Positions 3,284 through 20,201 of a stretch of 20,845 nucleotides of DNA are shown piece after piece. Source of the stretch: a virus; IMG/VR virus record IMGVR_UViG_3300006738_000123, positions 1-20,845 of that record; one strand, 5' to 3'. The notes under the pieces were generated by a model, which saw nothing but the letters and a program-made list of their open reading frames with translations, made no database searches and was not told where the DNA came from. The translations under genes were made by a program, and so were the position numbers. Numbering within the stretch: position 1 is the first letter of the stretch; each line of letters starts with the position of its first letter.

Positions 3284-5323
3284 TTGATTTTGCATAGCTT
3301 GTGAGTATGCCTGTATATAAGTTGAAATTTTTTGTATTTGTGCGACTGCAAGCTCAGTGTCTTCTTCTGTTTCAATATAGTCACCCACTATATTAAACCA
3401 ATCATTAAAATCAACCTGACTATCATCACCTCGCAGGTCTACAAGCTCTCCACCGGAAGCATCAATAGCTGGAGTTGTATATGTAGGAGCTGTCCCTAAA
3501 CTGGAAACTAATACTGAAGTAACATCTGGAGTTGTAAAACTAGGATCAGATGGAGATGCAGGGGAGACAGTTGATATAGTGAAAGCCCCCGGGTCATTAT
3601 CTGCAAAAGGATTAGCAGCGCTTGTATCCCTATAAAAAGCAAACCAACTTACCCTAGAAGTTTGAGTCGGAGATGAATATAAAGGAGGAGAACCTGCATT
3701 GGTAACAGTTACTGTACTTATACCCGGAGTTGAAAAGCTAGGGTCATTTGGAGTTACTGGTGGGACTGCTGTAAGGCTAAAAATACCCGGATCAGTTTCA
3801 CTCAAACCACTAGAACGAGAACTAAAAGCTGTTCTTGACTCTAAAATTGGGGCTGTATATGAAGGAGCTGTTGCGCTAAAAGACACAGTGCTCTCATTTA
3901 AAGTAGGAGGAACTGGAAGTATCGAAGATATATCCAAATCTGTAATAGTTGGAGTTGTTGTTAAAGATAGAATAGGCTCAGTATAACTAGGAGCAGATTC
4001 AGACATTGAAGCCATATCAGATATGCTAACTATAGGTTTAACTATATCAGTAATGCTTGCATCTGTATAAGTAAAACTAGGAGCTGATGGAGCCACAGGT
4101 TTTACTGGTAAATTTAAACTTCCTATACTTCCAAGAGTAGGAGCTAAAAATACTGGTTTGGTGTAACTTGGAGCGCTTGTGCTAAAAGATACAGAACTAC
4201 TACTTAAAGTAGGGGAAACTGGAGAAGAAATACTTATTGATAAATCACTTATACTTGAAAGAGAAGATAAGGATAATACGGGTTTAGTATATGTTGGAGC
4301 ACTACCTGAAGGATCAGCAACAACTTGTGCAGATATTGATGGAACCGATGGGGGGACAACACTAATACTCAAATTTGATATTGTTGGAGTTGCCCCTAAA
4401 GATATTACTGATTTCGTATAAGTAGGAGCGCTTGAACTAACCGATATAGCCCCAGTGTCAAAAGAAGGAGATGGAGGAGTTACTGGTAAAATTGACGAAA
4501 TACTCAAATCAGATATACTAGGATTACTAGTCAAAGATAAAACAGGCTTTGTATAAGCAGGAGCTGTTTGTGAGAAACTTACAGTAGTCGTACTTAAAGA
4601 AGGAGTAACTGGCACAGATGGTAAACTCAAACTACCAACTGACCCAAGTGAAGGGGCTGAAAATACAGGTTTTGTATAACTAGGAGCTGTCCACCCAGAT
4701 GTATCTACTGTAGGAGCAGTTATCGTCGGTACTACCGGAGCAGTAGATGAAATACTTAAATCACTCCCAAAATCTGGGGATGATGGAGCAACTGGCAACG
4801 AAGGACTCGTCCATGTAGGCAATCCATCAGTAGCTAGTTGTGAAAATTCTTGTGCAGCTGAATGAAATATAACTGCGTTTCTTAAATCAGAATCATCATT
4901 TATTTTAGAAAAGTCAACATATTGAGCATGAGCTGTATATGTATTATCTGGGTCTGGTTTTACTATTACCCTATTACCATCAGATATATAGTACTTTGGG
5001 AAAGTAGCTGTTGCTTTATGAAGGCTAGAAGAATTTCCTATAAACCCCCTCATGCTTCCATCAACTTTTCTTGCCTCGAATTGATCTCTTCTAACAAAAA
5101 TTAATGAATCTGTTTTAACAGGTAAAGTTATTTGCTGAGAGCTGTTATTCCCTCCATGAGTACCCGGAATTGTTTCTGTAATGGCCCACAATAATAAATT
5201 ACTTGGTATTGATGAAACTACAAATTTCTGAGCAGACCTTATGAAATCATCATTAGCATCCGACACTCCAGTTGTATTTTCTATATCAAGTTCTATCTTT
5301 GCGCAATCAGCTACATCGCCCAT
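602..5323 (-). CDS. Giant modular virion protein: N-terminal domain, Ser/Thr/Pro repeats, nine coiled-coil repeats
   Basis: A 1573-residue protein with three visible parts. Residues 1-170 are a globular domain of mixed composition that may anchor the protein to the virion. Residues about 210-620 are a low-complexity Ser/Thr/Pro region with about nine imperfect units beginning APSYTKPV or a close variant, spaced about 42-65 residues. Residues about 660-1560 are a Gln/Asn/Ser/Tyr-rich helical region without prolines, with nine units each opening on an LNxFNKENAEYQ-like motif. Unit lengths are about 105, 105, 84, 121, 83, 83, 88 and 84 residues, then a longer final unit. Tryptophans recur at similar places (IEKWQQEEW, EIAIWN). 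The composition predicts an elongated coiled-coil rod, such as a tail fibre, whisker or internal filament. It is the largest gene in the window. A role in adsorption or virion architecture is inferred from context. Upstream is a G-U containing hairpin. Confidence 0.85.
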   Translation of the reverse strand: MGDVADCAKIELDIENTTGVSDANDDFIRSAQKFVVSSIPSNLLLWAITETIPGTHGGNNSSQQITLPVKTDSLIFVRRDQFEARKVDGSMRGFIGNSSSLHKATATFPKYYISDGNRVIVKPDPDNTYTAHAQYVDFSKINDDSDLRNAVIFHSAAQEFSQLATDGLPTWTSPSLPVAPSSPDFGSDLSISSTAPVVPTITAPTVDTSGWTAPSYTKPVFSAPSLGSVGSLSLPSVPVTPSLSTTTVSFSQTAPAYTKPVLSLTSNPSISDLSISSILPVTPPSPSFDTGAISVSSSAPTYTKSVISLGATPTISNLSISVVPPSVPSISAQVVADPSGSAPTYTKPVLSLSSLSSISDLSISISSPVSPTLSSSSVSFSTSAPSYTKPVFLAPTLGSIGSLNLPVKPVAPSAPSFTYTDASITDIVKPIVSISDMASMSESAPSYTEPILSLTTTPTITDLDISSILPVPPTLNESTVSFSATAPSYTAPILESRTAFSSRSSGLSETDPGIFSLTAVPPVTPNDPSFSTPGISTVTVTNAGSPPLYSSPTQTSRVSWFAFYRDTSAANPFADNDPGAFTISTVSPASPSDPSFTTPDVTSVLVSSLGTAPTYTTPAIDASGGELVDLRGDDSQVDFNDWFNIVGDYIETEEDTELAVAQIQKISTYIQAYSQAMQNQLNVFNDANVEYQAKLQEGIRQADINAQEAQQESNLKLQKENQEYSAELQKYSSDLNRYQNDVSKEVQQYQQKLSRYQLEVNTSYQSWQKTESDSLQQYQLDIQDSLNSFNQGNTDYQGKLQEAIRQSDINAQEAQQEANLLLQQENQEYSATLQRYSADLNKYQADVGKEVQQYQQKLSQYQLELSTSIQAWQQEENEKVARYQSELQNSLNVFNKENAEYQAQLQISIQNAQLDSQEDAEKMSKYSGELQSYQNDVNKQVQEYTINEIQKEIAIWNTNIQSDLQSYASDMQNKLNSFNKDNVVYQQDIQRKIQNLEKDTQEAIQNAQNDISVNSANLNKSVQVALQNAVQDFQQDVQEYSAKLQKYNSEISLYQTEVSSTIEKWQQEEWIQNFQKYQNDYAQLVQTYQTDIQNELNSFNKDNAEYQAQLNISIQNAQLDSQDEAQELQKYASQLQDYQNQVNKDVQQFTNNFQKNIQVFQSENQYKVQEYQSNIQNELNEFNKENAKYQAILQEYLQEAQLLDSHEARKIQKYQSEVQTYESTINKEVQQYQQNLAGDIQVWQAERTTDLQKYGSDIQDELNEFNKEQAVYQNELQEKIQEAQNQQTKDSSEYSAKLQKYASEIQSYQSDVNKQVQEYTINEVQKEIAIWNRNIESDLQQYASDMQNELNEFQKESTEYQAQLNISLKNADLSDASDSKKVQKYQMELTAYQAEVSATIEKWTQEEWTQNFQKYQVDYSSKMQEYGSDIQSELNEFQKESTIYQAQIQQSIQDAQLESAEEGQKLQKYSSELGEYQQNIEKEVQDFSNTLNKEVQEYQNKLSLYTAEIQKHQSDVAEKTQQSAMTTQNTQYYERQAERYYKWAQTEITQYIQNNSKMINQTIAAQAAQQQRT
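3440..4690 (-). repeat. Ser/Thr/Pro-rich APxYT coding repeats
   Basis: About nine degenerate units in the middle of the giant virion gene, each with an AP(S/A/T)YT(K/E/T)P motif, followed by a hydrophobic/Ser stretch such as ISDLSISS and a Val/Pro linker. On the plus strand the recurring mark is a block resembling gtataagtaggagc. The two last units (toward the coiled coil) are longer and more diverged (FSLTAVPPVTP, FTISTVSPASP). Confidence 0.8.
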
Positions 5324-6011: not shown

Positions 6012-7568
6012 CTATTTCCAGACGGCATGGGATTCTGGCATCTGCCATTCCATACCGGCTTCAGTTTGAATTAAATCAACCCTACGGTCAACACCACTAT
6101 TCTCAAGAGTCTGAACACCAACGTAAACTGAAGTATCACGATTCAAGCCGTTACCGACAAGAGGTCTATACTTGCAATTTTTCATATTAGCCGCTATCAT
6201 CTTGATAGTAGTTCCATCAAGGTGAATATTACGAGACACATTCATTACCCCATAAGGAGTATAAATCTGTGTAATATCTACGCCAAATACGTTCTTTTTT
6301 CCGCCTATACTAAAGTCAGCTCTACCAATACCATCTCCTTGAGTACCAACTTTTTGTACGTTAGCTGAGAAATAGCCACTCAATTTGTGCATCCAATTAA
6401 ATACATCGGTTGAAACAAAAAATAAAGTAGCATTTGCGTTGTTGTATCGAGGATCAAGGAAATTGCTCATATCGTCAAGAAAATCATCCTGAGATTTTGT
6501 TCCAGTTGAACCCATTCCAGAACCACTGAAAATATTGCCATAATTAACAATAAAATCGACAGCTCCTTGAGTATATTGAACACTATCAACTGATCCCTGA
6601 GAACCAAATAACAATGATGTTTCAATATCCCATTTATGTTCAATCAACTTTTCACGCCAAATCCGTGCAAACTCATTTGGTTCATACTTCAGCACGGTAG
6701 CACGAGTTGTGTTATCCATTGCCATAGCTGTTTTCCAAATCTGAGTAAGTCCAAATCCGGTTGAGAAAGGTTGATCTTTCCAAGTTTCTGGATATCCAGT
6801 ACCTTGAGCATGAGCTGATCCAACTACATAAGAACGAGCTGATTCAAGTACCAATGCGATACTTTTATCAGCAACAACTTCATCGCCTGCTGAATCACCA
6901 GATGGACTAAAGTTATTAGTATGCCATCCAGCAAATTCGCCTGAGCTTGCAGCTGCTTTTGCGATTGTGCCTTCAATGAGAACACATTCTTTACTATCTT
7001 TTGAAAGAGAATCAGTAACTGCAGTTATCTTTACGAGAATATAGTCTTCTCCCCATTCAGTTCCATCAGTTTCACTTGTCATAGGGATTTTAACTACTTG
7101 GCCTGGTAAAAAGAAAGCAGGTCTTGTCCCGCTTGCTCCAACCGACCAATCATTTGCAGTATTTCCATACACATTTTGTAGATTGCCGCCAGATTTATAA
7201 TCGCCAGCCATATACAACTTTACTGTGTCTCCTTGAGCAACAGAAGTTCCAGCTCCTGCATCGTTAGTAGCAATTATTTCAGAATCACCAAAATAATCTG
7301 CGCCAGATGCATTTACAGCCCCCATCACATAAGCATATCGCTTATGATAAGAAGGTCTGCGTTCGGTAAATTTGAACTCTGGATCGTCTGTTGGCTTTTT
7401 AGCAATCTTAGATACAAATCGGAAGAAAGGGTCTTGAGCAATGTTTAGTTCAGAAACTCTATCCCCGAAATTATACTTTCGTCTAAGGTCGCCAGTGTCT
7501 TTTGAAGTACCATCAGAACTGTAACTCGCTACATCTGAATAAGTACCTAAGCTAAATACATCAGCCAT
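6012..7568 (-). CDS. Major capsid protein
   Basis: A 518-residue protein directly downstream of a scaffold-like gene and the portal, which fixes its likely role as the shell protein of the head. The N-terminal segment, about residues 38-75 (LNIAQDPFFRFVSKIAKKP then FKFTERRPSY), has the look of the conserved N-terminal arm of long marine-type phage capsid proteins. The central region has Gly/Asp-rich loops and the C-terminus a beta-rich segment (VDITQIYTPYGVMNVSRNI). The length is large for an HK97-fold capsid protein (usually 300-450), suggesting an insertion domain around residues 120-230. ATG 7568 follows an AAAAGGTAAT site. I base the call on gene order and overall composition; no single catalytic motif exists to confirm it. 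Confidence 0.85.
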   Translation of the reverse strand: MADVFSLGTYSDVASYSSDGTSKDTGDLRRKYNFGDRVSELNIAQDPFFRFVSKIAKKPTDDPEFKFTERRPSYHKRYAYVMGAVNASGADYFGDSEIIATNDAGAGTSVAQGDTVKLYMAGDYKSGGNLQNVYGNTANDWSVGASGTRPAFFLPGQVVKIPMTSETDGTEWGEDYILVKITAVTDSLSKDSKECVLIEGTIAKAAASSGEFAGWHTNNFSPSGDSAGDEVVADKSIALVLESARSYVVGSAHAQGTGYPETWKDQPFSTGFGLTQIWKTAMAMDNTTRATVLKYEPNEFARIWREKLIEHKWDIETSLLFGSQGSVDSVQYTQGAVDFIVNYGNIFSGSGMGSTGTKSQDDFLDDMSNFLDPRYNNANATLFFVSTDVFNWMHKLSGYFSANVQKVGTQGDGIGRADFSIGGKKNVFGVDITQIYTPYGVMNVSRNIHLDGTTIKMIAANMKNCKYRPLVGNGLNRDTSVYVGVQTLENSGVDRRVDLIQTEAGMEWQMPESHAVWK

Positions 7569-7608
7569 TTTATTACCTTTTAATTAAGGGTTAATGGCTT
7601 AAGATATT

Positions 7609-8466
7609 TTAAATACCAAAAGCCTTTTCTAGTTCACTGTCAGAACCTAAAATGGCGTCGAAAATCGAATCTTCAGGTGATTGTTCTACCTGAGCTCCAC
7701 CTGCTGTAGCAAGTGAACCCGGTTGATTTTGAACTTCCCGCATCTTTTCTTGAAGCTCTTGCCTTGTGTTATCGGCAATTTTCTCATCCCTATTCTTACG
7801 ATTCATTAGATAATATATATCATCAAGTTCAAGAGACTTAGACTTTGCATAATCAACAAATGTAGACCACTTTTCATCAGACATTTCATGTCTAGAACGA
7901 AAATCGGTTTCCCTTGCTAATTTCATATTCTCAGCTCGTTGTCCTTGTAAAGCTCCATTAAGTCTACGTTGGACTATACCGTCTATCGTAGCTCCTAATA
8001 CTCTAGCAGAATCAGAATCGGGATTTTGAAAAGCTTCATCAGCTTCAAATTCAAAATCTTCTGGCAGACTCAGTTTATCAGCCATTGTTTGAGGTGTCTG
8101 ACCTCCACCCTCAAAATAATTCCTAACATGAGAAATTAAGTTGGGGTCTTCTCGCATAGCTTCAAGTATGGGCATATAAGGCTCAATTTCTTTAAGTTGT
8201 CCATTTAGTCTTTGTGCTTCTCTACTTGAATCGCTATACCGTTTCTGTAATGTCTCCACTTCTTGTGGGACATCTGCTTGAACTTCACTTTGGCTCGAAA
8301 GTGTGTTATCACTCTCTGTTTCCGAGGTTGCTGGCGAAGGTTCGTCTATTATACCTCCATTGACACTTTTGTCTAATTCCTCAAAGAAATTATCAGAGTC
8401 AAGGGTATCGGTTAGTATGTTATCACTTTCGGGGGCCTCAGTGGCGTTGCCTACTTGCTCGTTCAT
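7609..8466 (-). CDS. Putative capsid scaffolding protein
   Basis: A 285-residue acidic, mainly helical protein between portal and capsid genes, the standard position for scaffold. Residues 1-75 are disordered and rich in Asp, Glu and Ser. Residues about 70-95 form a short coiled coil (VETLQKRYSDSSREAQRLNG). Residues 155-260 are helical with many charged residues, ending in a helix (TRQELQEKMREVQNQ). The C-terminal tail carries hydrophobic/acidic residues (SIFDAILGSDSELEKAFGI), a plausible capsid-binding tail. ATG 8466 follows AAGGAG. No protease domain is seen, so scaffold removal, if any, would not be by a fused protease. The call is from context plus composition. Confidence 0.75.
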   Translation of the reverse strand: MNEQVGNATEAPESDNILTDTLDSDNFFEELDKSVNGGIIDEPSPATSETESDNTLSSQSEVQADVPQEVETLQKRYSDSSREAQRLNGQLKEIEPYMPILEAMREDPNLISHVRNYFEGGGQTPQTMADKLSLPEDFEFEADEAFQNPDSDSARVLGATIDGIVQRRLNGALQGQRAENMKLARETDFRSRHEMSDEKWSTFVDYAKSKSLELDDIYYLMNRKNRDEKIADNTRQELQEKMREVQNQPGSLATAGGAQVEQSPEDSIFDAILGSDSELEKAFGI

Positions 8467-15787: not shown

Positions 15788-15828
15788 CTGATTTTGCCCA
15801 AGTTGTATACCTAAAAAATAGCAGGATT

Positions 15829-15871
15829 TTGATATGTGGCCTTTATACACTATATACCCCCTATTCGGGGG
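15829..15871 (+). promoter_or_regulatory. Candidate rightward early promoter followed by a start-site hairpin
   Basis: TTGATA (15829-15834), 16-nt spacer, TATATA (15851-15856). The CCCCC-TATTC-GGGGG hairpin follows at 15857-15871, where the transcript would begin, so it may protect the 5' end or be bound by a regulator. The first plus-strand ATG is at 15946. Confidence 0.45.
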
Positions 15872-15945
15872 ATTTCGTATTTACGTTTTTAGTTAATTTT
15901 CAATTAATTAGAAATTATTAAGTAGTTAATAAGAAGGAGTAAACT

Positions 15946-16206: not shown

Positions 16207-16212
16207 AATTGC

Positions 16213-16256
16213 GGAGCGACGGACAGGGAGGAGGTGATAGCCCTCCCTTCTGCTCC
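16213..16256 (+). other. Two-tier hairpin after the first early gene
   Basis: Inner stem agggagg (16225-16231) pairs cctccct (16242-16248) across a 10-nt loop; outer stem ggagc (16213-16217) pairs gctcc (16252-16256). It begins 7 nt after the 86-residue gene's stop. No U-run follows, so termination is unproven; it could be an RNA-stabilising or processing structure. Confidence 0.5.
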
Positions 16257-16365
16257 AATCTATTGTTGTGCTGCTTCATGTCCAACTATAACAAGAGCAA
16301 TAGTACTGTTGCCACCTGACTAATAGCCCTCTACATGCTATGGTTGTTAGTTAGGTTAGATAAAT

Positions 16366-16440
16366 TTGTCCAAGTCGTGGTAGGTGTCGACTAGTGATGT
16401 CATGTCATTATACTACTATATCTACTACGAACTTGGGCAA
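16366..16440 (+). ncRNA. Long bulged helix (about 22 bp) with G-U pairs
   Basis: Bases 16366-16374 pair with 16432-16440 (nine pairs, one U-G), A16431 is bulged, and 16375-16387 pair with 16418-16430 (thirteen pairs, three of them G-U). The inner 30 nt can form a small stem-loop (TAGT/ACTA plus GATG/CATT). All four wobbles are G-U in a plus-strand RNA and would be A-C mismatches in the opposite RNA. This asymmetry is what a real transcript should show. Confidence 0.6.
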
Positions 16441-16487
16441 TAACTGGGTAGACACAGCTACTCGAGTGGTTTAATAAAGAGGATCAC

Positions 16488-16493
16488 TATAAT
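16488..16493 (+). promoter_or_regulatory. Candidate -10 box before the pseudoknot leader
   Basis: A perfect TATAAT stands about 7 nt before where a transcript would start (around 16500), just upstream of the pseudoknot at 16507. No -35 element near the expected spacing is convincing (best is a weak match near 16465-16471), so it may need an activator or phage factor, or be chance. Confidence 0.35.
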
Positions 16494-16506
16494 CTTGAGC
16501 TCTCTA

Positions 16507-16545
16507 TGTAGGTTTATGCCAGTTCCTACAAAAACAATACTGGCA
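16507..16545 (+). promoter_or_regulatory. H-type pseudoknot, possible riboswitch or leader element
   Basis: Stem 1 is TGTAGG (16507-16512) with CCTACA (16525-16530). Loop 1 is TTTA. Stem 2 is TGCCAGT (16517-16523) with ACTGGCA (16539-16545). One nucleotide joins the stems and the long loop AAAACAAT (16531-16538) is A-rich, as in classic H-type pseudoknots. It ends 13 nt before the AAGGAG of the next ORF. It does not hide that site directly. Similar folds underlie small-ligand riboswitches (preQ1, SAM-II), but no known consensus was recognised. Confidence 0.6.
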
Positions 16546-16571
16546 CTGTTTATAACAAAGGAGCAACTATT

Positions 16572-17905: not shown

Positions 17906-18118
17906 ATGAGAACAGTATCAGACTATATCAATGGAAGACATTTTGAAGATACATCAATTGGTGAAGATGCTTGCAAAGTTGATAATGTAGTAATTTATAA
18001 AGGTTCTATTTCTGATAAAGAATATTTAAAGGCGAAGAAGGCTGCACAAGAAGAGTGGAATATTCAAATGTACCGTAAAGAGTACATACAGAAGAGAAAT
18101 CTTCATGACTTACGCTGA
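17906..18118 (+). CDS. Hypothetical basic helical protein (70 aa)
   Basis: ATG 17906 follows TAGGAG. The C-terminal half is charged and helical (SDKEYLKAKKAAQEEWNIQM, YRKEYIQKRNLHDLR). No motif is recognised. It overlaps the next gene by 14 nt, in a different frame. Confidence 0.65.
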   Translation: MRTVSDYINGRHFEDTSIGEDACKVDNVVIYKGSISDKEYLKAKKAAQEEWNIQMYRKEYIQKRNLHDLR

Positions 18119-18365
18119 AATGTACCCTGCAGTGTACCCGTGGGAGCATAAGATTGTGCTCCTACTGGGTATGCAGGGATACAATAAACATCATATACAT
18201 TTTAGAATATCTAATAATCAAAGATATTTAAGGTATAACTACTGGCAGCCTATTGCTGAGAAAGATATTGATTATATCCACAAGCATTGCGAAATTAGGC
18301 TATTAGAAGACAGCTGGGAAGAAGATGAAAAGGGGACAGTATTTTCATACGATATAATTACATAA
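18105..18365 (+). CDS. Hypothetical aromatic-rich protein (86 aa)
   Basis: Starts at ATG 18105 inside the end of the previous gene, with a weak AGAAGAG site. It is rich in Tyr, His and Trp (KHHIHFRISNNQRYLRYNYW) and has acidic residues near the end (EDSWEEDEKG). The His/Tyr clusters may bind metal or nucleic acid, but no family is recognised. A perfect TATAAT lies in its last codons, just before the large structured region. Confidence 0.6.
   Translation: MTYAEMYPAVYPWEHKIVLLLGMQGYNKHHIHFRISNNQRYLRYNYWQPIAEKDIDYIHKHCEIRLLEDSWEEDEKGTVFSYDIIT
18353..18358 (+). promoter_or_regulatory. Candidate -10 box before the large structured RNA
   Basis: Perfect TATAAT placed so that a transcript would start about 18365, exactly where the structured gene-free region begins. 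No good -35 is visible at standard spacing. As with 16488-16493, a TATAAT without -35 stands before a structured stretch. Confidence 0.35.
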
Positions 18366-19069
18366 CATTTAGCCACTCCAATCCTATCCTGTTGCTCCGC
18401 AAACAACACACACAGTACCTTCTATGGTACATAGTTGGGGTGGCGTCATTGAGGAAGAAATATAAATAATGGCTACGGCGTATTATTTATCCAGGGTTTA
18501 AGGATTTGCTAGTGTCAGAATCCTGGGCTACTAGCTCTTCCTCAAATTTCTTTAGCTTAGTAAAAAGTCTCCTAATGGAGTTTAAGCTAATAATAAATCA
18601 TAGTACAGCAATTGTGATGAACCAAAGCTAGGTTTATACATTTGCGAAGCTTTATCCTTAGAACAGTATCTATCTACAACAAGGCGGGTATCTAAGGGCT
18701 GTGAACTGGTTCTTCAAGGGCCAGATGACTCTTAAAAAGGGCTAATGCTTAAGTCATGACGTAAAGTCTGAACAGTACGGGTTGAACATACTAAGAAAAA
18801 ACAGTCTTTGTGTGTCGGTAGTGCAAGATACAGGGGAATGTAGTCCTCATCAGTATCAATAGTTTAAGTTCTGAGAGCCTGAGTCATGTGGTAACTAGAC
18901 AAGGTTCTGAATGGCAATGAGTTGATAACACCAACTTGAGTCATAGAACGTAGAGTAATCTGAATGGCTAGCGCAAACGTGATCCGAAAGGACATAAACC
19001 AAAACTACTCAATCTTGTAGCGGTAAGAGTTGCAAACTACTCAGTTTGAATCCTACATAGCGTACTATG
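18366..19069 (+). ncRNA. Large structured non-coding RNA candidate (about 0.7 kb)
   Basis: No ORF longer than a few dozen codons fits here, yet complementary stems tile it: GCCACTCC/GGGGTGGC (18372-18379 / 18437-18444) enclosing two hairpins (18390-18405; 18415-18430); a 10-bp stem 18449-18458 / 18536-18545 enclosing a 9-bp hairpin (18462-18490) and a pseudoknot-like element (18501-18535); 18552-18559 / 18583-18590; 18620-18653; 18656-18662 / 18691-18697; 18706-18724; 18725-18757; 18827-18857; 18868-18949 with inner 18920-18936; 19016-19020 / 19053-19057 with inner 19033-19048; and 19056-19069. Size, setting (phage early region) and ornate look recall GOLLD or ROOL RNAs; identity is unproven. 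It is not a tRNA array or an intron: flanking genes are intact. Confidence 0.6.
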
Positions 19070-19092
19070 ATTTACATAAATAAGGAGATAAA

Positions 19093-19242
19093 ATGAAGAA
19101 ACGAATCAATAAAACAAATAAAGAGCTGTCTAATGACATGGGATGTACTCCTCGGCAAATATCTAAATCACGAAAGCGTGGTTGGATATGGAGAGATGGA
19201 CAGAAAGTTAAATACAAAGCACCATTGCCAGTGCAACTGTAA
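19093..19242 (+). CDS. Small HTH DNA-binding protein (49 aa)
   Basis: ATG 19093 follows TAAGGAGA. The 49-residue basic protein has a helix-turn-helix-like stretch, NKELSNDMGCTPRQISKSRK (9-28), followed by RGWIWRDGQKVKYK. The pattern of a short turn and Arg/Gln-Ser in the second helix resembles small Cro- or terminase-type HTH domains. It is the first gene after the structured RNA region and may be a repressor or transcription regulator; the target is unknown. A larger overlapping frame (19133-19372) is a shadow. Confidence 0.75.
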   Translation: MKKRINKTNKELSNDMGCTPRQISKSRKRGWIWRDGQKVKYKAPLPVQL

Positions 19243-19377: not shown

Positions 19378-20130
19378 ATGAGAGTGTATGAAACCACAAA
19401 CTACAATCAATTTCAGCTTATTGAATCTAATAGGCCAGTTGATTGGAGAAAAGTAAGTAGGATGCGGGAAGAAGTTAAACGTAAGAACCTTGCCTCTGCC
19501 TATATGATAATAGTTAATAGTAAAGAAAAGGGTAAAAAATCGTATAAGACTGATGGTAAAAAGTTTCCAATTGTTGATGGACAACATAGGTTTGAAACTT
19601 TAAAAGCTGAGGGTAGGAAAATATATTATATTATCAATGATGATGTAACCCTGGATGATATTCCTAGAGCTGCTAGTATGCAGAACTCTTGGAAGATAAC
19701 AGATTACCTTCATCACTACTCACAAAGGGGATATTCTGAATATAAAGCATTTAGCGGCTATATGATCAGAAATGGATTCCCTCCATCAGTAGCTATGACA
19801 GTATTATGCGGTGACCGTGGAAGCTGGACAAGTACAGCTTTAAAGAATGGTGAGATGAAAGTTACTACTAACTGGGAAACTGCAAACAAATATGCTGATG
19901 CAGTACATGAACTAGGTGCGTATATTAAATTTAATAAGCACGCAAGGTTCTTAGAGGCATTTTGGATAATGTTTACTAATGAAGAGTACAGCCACAAAAG
20001 GATGATGGCAAAGGTAGAGTATCTATCTAGCTACATTAAACGGTCTCCTGACAGACATACTTATTTAGAAGCTCTTGAATATGTATATAATTACAATTCT
20101 AGAGATAAAGTAAGGTTTGTCAAAGACTAG
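19378..20130 (+). CDS. ParB-like / DGQHR-domain protein
   Basis: A 250-residue protein beginning at ATG 19378 (an upstream in-frame ATG at 19351 lies inside the previous gene). The N-terminal half resembles the ParB/sulfiredoxin fold: a DWRKVSRMREEVKRKNLAS region, then FPIVDGQHRFETLKAEGR, the DGQHR signature also found in DndB-type proteins, followed by an IYYIINDDVTLDD strand. The C-terminal half is helical and basic. Phage members of this fold are described as ParB-like nucleases or partition-like proteins; catalysis or binding here is not shown. A role in DNA transactions or host regulation is possible. Confidence 0.7.
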   Translation: MRVYETTNYNQFQLIESNRPVDWRKVSRMREEVKRKNLASAYMIIVNSKEKGKKSYKTDGKKFPIVDGQHRFETLKAEGRKIYYIINDDVTLDDIPRAASMQNSWKITDYLHHYSQRGYSEYKAFSGYMIRNGFPPSVAMTVLCGDRGSWTSTALKNGEMKVTTNWETANKYADAVHELGAYIKFNKHARFLEAFWIMFTNEEYSHKRMMAKVEYLSSYIKRSPDRHTYLEALEYVYNYNSRDKVRFVKD

Positions 20131-20144
20131 ATAACAAAGCAATG

Positions 20145-20181
20145 AAGGGAGTTAATAACTATGGTTTGGTATGGCTCCCTT
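20145..20181 (+). terminator. Hairpin between the ParB-like gene and the zinc-ribbon gene
   Basis: aagggag (20145-20151) pairs ctccctt (20175-20181) with a 23-nt loop. No U-run follows, so it is a candidate attenuator or processing site. It resembles the terminator stem at 16899 (both begin gggagtta). Confidence 0.45.
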
Positions 20182-20201
20182 CTATTGCGAAAGGATATAA
20201 T

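Follow-up and report, generated by a model that had tools for sequence, protein, structure and literature searches.

A probable large structured RNA with a replaceable module in the early region of an uncultured phage

Positions 18366–19092 of the window (the whole stretch of DNA analysed, a 20,845-base contig of an uncultured virus, described as a marine phage) most likely encode a large structured RNA on the + strand, judging from comparison with related viral contigs. By this comparison, the stretch was shown to be non-coding, its RNA-like folding to be partly under selection, one of its modules to be replaced in a relative, and the element to be absent from another relative. A first-pass annotation had proposed a large structured non-coding RNA in this early region; the energy-preserving and compensatory substitutions and the replacement of a whole module described below support that proposal, while its suggested GOLLD or ROOL identity was not supported.

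GOLLD, ROOL and similar large non-coding RNAs of phages are elaborate, but we know of no function for them. A group of phages in which such an element is present or absent, and in which its core is kept and a module swapped, provides a natural experiment. Exchange of a module points towards a functional unit in its own right, and the other carriers of such modules (L172 and L086 below) allow study in approximately 100 nt instead of 700. The group would, moreover, demonstrate that phages can trade short RNA modules as whole units.

Setting and predicted architecture of the element

The late genes of the phage occupy the − strand to the left of 15,713 and include matches to a terminase large subunit and a portal protein, with a weaker match to a major head protein. 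The small early genes occupy the + strand to the right of 15,946. Relatives of the terminase were found in hundreds of IMG/VR contigs, and the terminases of cultured phages, among the matches listed, were approximately 25% identical or less.

The element fills a gap of 727 nt (18366–19092) between two small early genes, ORF86 (18105–18365) and ORF49 (19093–19242), and lies on the same (+) strand as these genes; ORF49, an ORF with a TM segment (TM ORF) and a ParB-like gene follow it. The absence of a plausible gene, as annotated at first pass, was confirmed: the longest ORFs in the gap were 41–47 aa, every frame contained 15–26 stops, and no convincing protein homologue or remnant was detected for translated pieces of the gap. 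The features of the element and its borders, as read or predicted from the sequence, are listed below.

18353–18358, + strand: TATAAT, possible −10 element, approximately 8 nt upstream of the proposed 5′ end; kept in the full-length relative L082 (see below)
18372–18444, + strand: module 1, 73 nt, with an 11-bp closing helix (18372–18382/18434–18444)
18449–18545, + strand: module 2, 97 nt, with a 10-bp closing helix (18449–18458/18536–18545)
18463–18470/18482–18489 and 18491–18498/18519–18526, + strand: the two hairpins of module 2
18508–18513 with 18530–18535, + strand: predicted pseudoknot in module 2 (GCUAGU:ACUAGC)
18552–18590, + strand: module 3, a 39-nt hairpin with a 9-bp stem
18594–19074, + strand: large 3′ domain, 481 nt, with a 13-bp closing helix (18594–18606/19062–19074)
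18725–18757, + strand: hairpin in the 3′ domain, with loop AAAAAGGGCUAAUGCU and stem AUGACU/AGUCAU
19082–19087, + strand: AAGGAG, ribosome binding site of ORF49; the non-coding stretch extends no further than this site

The linkers between modules are 3–6 nt long. An 8-bp direct repeat, TTACATAA, flanks the element (18358–18365 and 19073–19080) and has only these two copies in the window; it is not kept in L082, and is thus weak as an insertion footprint. No good −35 element was found for the TATAAT sequence, which is a weak promoter candidate since it is not listed by the promoter scan, and no distinct terminator was seen between the element and ORF49.

Both the 10-bp stem (18449–18458/18536–18545) and the 9-bp hairpin (18552–18560/18582–18590) annotated previously are present. 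The end-to-end tiling by stems, in which they had been placed, is better described as modules of 73, 97 and 39 nt, followed by the 481-nt domain. Stem density, which together with nested order had served as the argument for structure, was not significant, with 11 stems of at least 9 bp against 7.1±2.6 in shuffled sequences (P=0.11). The strongest single feature, and the only statistically unusual stem, had been overlooked: it is the perfect 13-bp inverted repeat 18594–18606/19062–19074, and an inverted repeat of this length occurred in only 5 of 1500 shuffles (P=0.003).

The region folded more stably than dinucleotide-shuffled controls, with z-scores of −5.3 (+ strand) and −2.2 (− strand), and of −5.7 and −1.5, respectively, in a repeat run. 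The + strand fold contained 32 G-U pairs and the − strand fold 14, a difference that would be expected if the RNA is made from the + strand. In 700-nt windows across the whole phage, however, coding regions also folded strongly and the region of the element ranked approximately 10th. The energy z-score alone was therefore rejected as proof, since the coding sequence of the phage comes close to the same folding stability.

Comparison with relatives

When the ParB-like protein, ORF49 and ORF86 were used as queries, one IMG/VR contig, 3300038314_000530, emerged that carries the whole element in the same place and is the only full-length relative found (L082, L134, L169 and L191 are pieces of this contig). 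Identity to L082 was 78% for 18366–18447 and 95% for 18552–19076, but 32%, that is, unalignable, for 18448–18551; among the neighbouring genes, ORF70 was 71% and the TM ORF 78% identical. Within the alignable parts, several substitutions maintained the predicted pairing. The closing helix of module 1 (18372–18382/18434–18444) carries two one-sided changes in L082 with pairing retained, and the hairpin of module 3 shows a double change from U-A to C-G. The stem of the hairpin at 18725–18757, as read by hand from the alignments, is rewritten in L082 (AUAUGUA/UAUAUAU) around an identical loop.

We then compared the effect of the L082 substitutions on folding energy with that of the same substitutions placed at random. 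Folding energy was preserved by the observed substitutions in module 1 (P=0.025), in the 3′ part (P=0.010) and in its sub-region 18700–18770 (P=0.005). Five coding regions served as controls, of which four missed P=0.05 (0.06 to 0.59) and one, ORF101, passed (P=0.013); since a coding control also passes, this test gives support rather than proof. Pair counts on the minimum-free-energy fold of the window itself, for the 3′ part alone and with two sequences, were not significant (P=0.33). A count over the whole region yielded 15 double changes against 2.3 expected, a difference not to be relied on, because it includes the unalignable module 2. The 13-bp closing helix is identical in both sequences, and thus carries no covariation support.

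The unalignable part corresponds to an outright replacement. In L082 (within 2056–2166), an unrelated module, with no recognisable common sequence, takes the place of module 2; the two modules are of similar length (97 and approximately 102 nt), lie in the same place and are each closed by a 10-bp helix. A homologue of the module 2 of the window was detected standing alone between two genes in another contig, L172 (1683–1784), with a Smith–Waterman score of 214 against a best score of 142 for 60 shuffled queries over the same loci. This match was lost in BLAST with a slightly shorter query, and was rechecked by full Smith–Waterman alignment with shuffles. Both copies fold as an outer helix with two hairpins, and in both a pseudoknot can form between the second hairpin's loop and the stretch that precedes the 3′ strand of the outer helix. 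In L172, the predicted pseudoknot (UGUUAG:CUAACA) lies in the same place, with a double change from C-G to U-A and one end pair out of register. Pairs were counted on the Smith–Waterman alignment because MAFFT misplaced a gap. Four double compensatory pairs, one of them in the pseudoknot, were identified (P=0.008 against randomised substitutions), while seven pairs are broken if the sequence alignment is taken without adjustment. A gapped pattern of module 2, searched in IMG/VR and 84,980 genomes, detected only the known L172 record besides chance matches.

The version of module 2 found in L082 has a homologue of its own, with 86% identity, in L086 (7407–7520). This homologue lies in a single intergenic gap (7331–7670) that contains four stem-closed modules back to back. 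Integron attC sites were considered for these modules and rejected, as one of them has GCCCAAC...GTTGGGC but the others do not.

In a further relative, L004, the homologues of ORF86 and ORF49 adjoin or overlap without a gap, and the element is absent. Since the flanking genes occur there with nothing between them, the element is optional and not needed by the downstream gene. For the 3′ domain, no further relative was detected in any locus or record searched. A covariance model of part of this domain (R1) matched only in the L082 record among 91 loci and 20 whole records, and two conserved strings of 15–16 nt were found in 61 and 50 IMG/VR contigs, with the match extending further only in the known relative.

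Known RNA families and competing explanations

Rfam 15 was searched over the window and the element at E≤5 and E≤10. The claim of a divergent GOLLD or ROOL RNA was left without support, as neither model matched at E up to 10. For GOLLD (RF02032, a model of the conserved 3′ region), no match was obtained at E≤10 under conditions in which no true positive control scored above the cut-off either; for ROOL (RF03087), the control genomes were likewise without a match at E≤10, so that the sensitivity of this search is unproven. No other Rfam 15 family, including ribozymes, riboswitches, introns and tmRNA, matched at the gathering score or at E<1; the best in the region, AS-traG (E 1.3), and two weaker matches fell far short of their gathering scores. 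A model of a group II intron domain did not match either. BLAST against 50,697 phage records gave one 29-nt chance match only, and against plasmids none. The alternative claim of a new class is possible, with only two full-length members as its basis.

GOLLD and ROOL form homo-oligomeric RNA nanocages. The element resembles ROOL as a large phage-borne non-coding RNA of similar length (the ROOL model has 574 positions), and resembles GOLLD in being phage-borne, approximately 0.7–0.8 kb long, non-coding and elaborate. Unlike GOLLD, which is often found near phage tRNA genes, it has no tRNA or tmRNA in its 20.8-kb window, although some relatives have tRNAs. GOLLD has a conserved 3′ region and a variable, separately folding 5′ region (PMC12286853). 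By analogy, and from two sequences, the element behaves alike, with its 3′ part 95% kept and its 5′ module 2 replaced; its 5′ change differs from that of GOLLD in being the outright replacement of one module of approximately 100 nt. The resemblance to GOLLD and ROOL is thus one of size, setting and domain behaviour, and the element is not filed as a member of either family. Abundant, unclassified large RNAs are transcribed from ORF-less stretches of ICP1 (approximately 800 nt; PMC7567579) and phage K (PMC9241854). These and the element are all large ORF-less phage stretches without a family, the element being known from sequence alone. In view of the ICP1 and phage K RNAs, this kind of RNA is already known, and the new point is the outright replacement of a module.

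The reading that we tentatively favour is a + strand RNA of three modules and a 481-nt domain, stable and acting in trans in the manner of GOLLD and ROOL. It would be transcribed together with the early genes, and its three small, independently folding modules would precede the domain closed by the 13-bp helix. By analogy with GOLLD, the 3′ domain may be the core and the 5′ modules exchangeable attachments. The RNA might serve as a folded object, such as a scaffold, a decoy or an RNA-only assembly, presumably to the benefit of the phage and not through the next gene, ORF49; for both trans action and assembly, the analogy with GOLLD and ROOL is the sole guide. Nearly as good an account, to which we nevertheless give a lower chance, is an array of small RNAs, in which host RNases would cut the transcript between modules into products of approximately 40–480 nt, each acting alone as an antisense RNA, decoy or protein sponge. 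The closure of each module by its own terminal stem, the linkers of 3–6 nt, the solitary module 2 of L172 and the four adjacent modules of L086 all agree with such processing, as do sister arrays that include known stand-alone RNAs (Pistol ribozyme, tRNA and tmRNA). A 481-nt domain is, however, far larger than a small RNA, and in neither full-length member are the three parts separated.

The remaining explanations were considered improbable. A long 5′ leader, structured and controlling the ORF49–TM–ParB operon in cis, would fit the position of the element immediately before the ORF49 ribosome binding site, with no terminator seen between them; such a leader is disfavoured because relatives of ORF49 occur without the element, being directly preceded by other genes in L004 and L172. 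Moreover, 0.7 kb is long for a leader, and the downstream gene order differs between relatives. Still less probable is an element that works as DNA through its inverted repeats (a replication origin, or a packaging or recombination site). The nearby ParB-like gene, the long inverted repeats and the flanking direct repeat fit this explanation, but the absence of the direct repeat from L082 does not, and it is disfavoured by the strand asymmetry of the fold, whose richness in G-U pairs on the + strand would be irrelevant for DNA cruciforms. The lowest chance was given to spacer DNA that is decaying or folds by chance, in a phage with strong folding throughout its genome. Coding windows do fold as strongly and stem density is not significant; nevertheless, the 95% identity of the 3′ part against 71–78% for neighbouring genes, the replacement at module boundaries, the compensatory changes, the preservation of folding energy and the lack of protein remnants argue against it.

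Other structured non-coding stretches

The other long gap of the window, 16207–16570, is also non-coding, with z-scores of −6.4 on the + strand and −0.5 on the − strand. Pieces of it occur in L082 in swapped order (16284–16361 as L082 651–727, and 16398–16445 as L082 393–440), and 16465–16553 is 83% identical to 2149–2234 of L170. For the two loci 16207–16570 and 18366–19092, it is possible, though we would not call it probable, that this lineage builds large non-coding RNAs from exchangeable, separately folding RNA cassettes of approximately 40–120 nt. Like gene cassettes, these would move between phages and positions, around a large core specific to the lineage. A long hairpin at 16366–16440 weakly resembled the microRNA precursor model mir-5928 (23 bits, well short of the gathering score), a similarity that a long stem gives by chance.

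Structured non-coding stretches were also detected near homologues of ORF49 in relatives, as in the case of the element. L182 (1835–2256) and L183 (4177–4641) have in common a non-coding structured region of approximately 400 nt. The two copies are 67% identical and differ by numerous double changes at paired positions, but the structure used for this count was itself selected from these two sequences. The L183 copy gave only one weak, sub-threshold CRISPR-repeat fragment in Rfam, and covariance-model search showed no homology between this RNA and the element. The region is a promising candidate for another new RNA. Upstream of its ORF49 homologue, L183 also carries a Pistol ribozyme and a tRNA-Met (1956–2016 and 2885–2959), unlike the window of the element, which has no ribozyme or tRNA match. 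L185, a large viral contig, carries a tmRNA and three tRNAs at 4696–5067. The lists of gaps in relatives came from a rough gene caller that misses some genes (one in L185, for example) and serve as a guide only. In L176, a non-coding stretch of 0.57 kb (2237–2823) upstream of an ORF49 homologue had a z-score of −5.2 on the + strand and matched no Rfam family credibly; it may be a large RNA of a similar kind.

Two further stretches of the window were noted. The strongest 200-nt folding outlier of the window (20001–20200, z-score −9.4 on the + strand) lies at the end of the ParB-like gene. The non-coding stretch 15793–15920, between the divergent late and early genes, is conserved in dozens of relatives and is probably a promoter or origin region.
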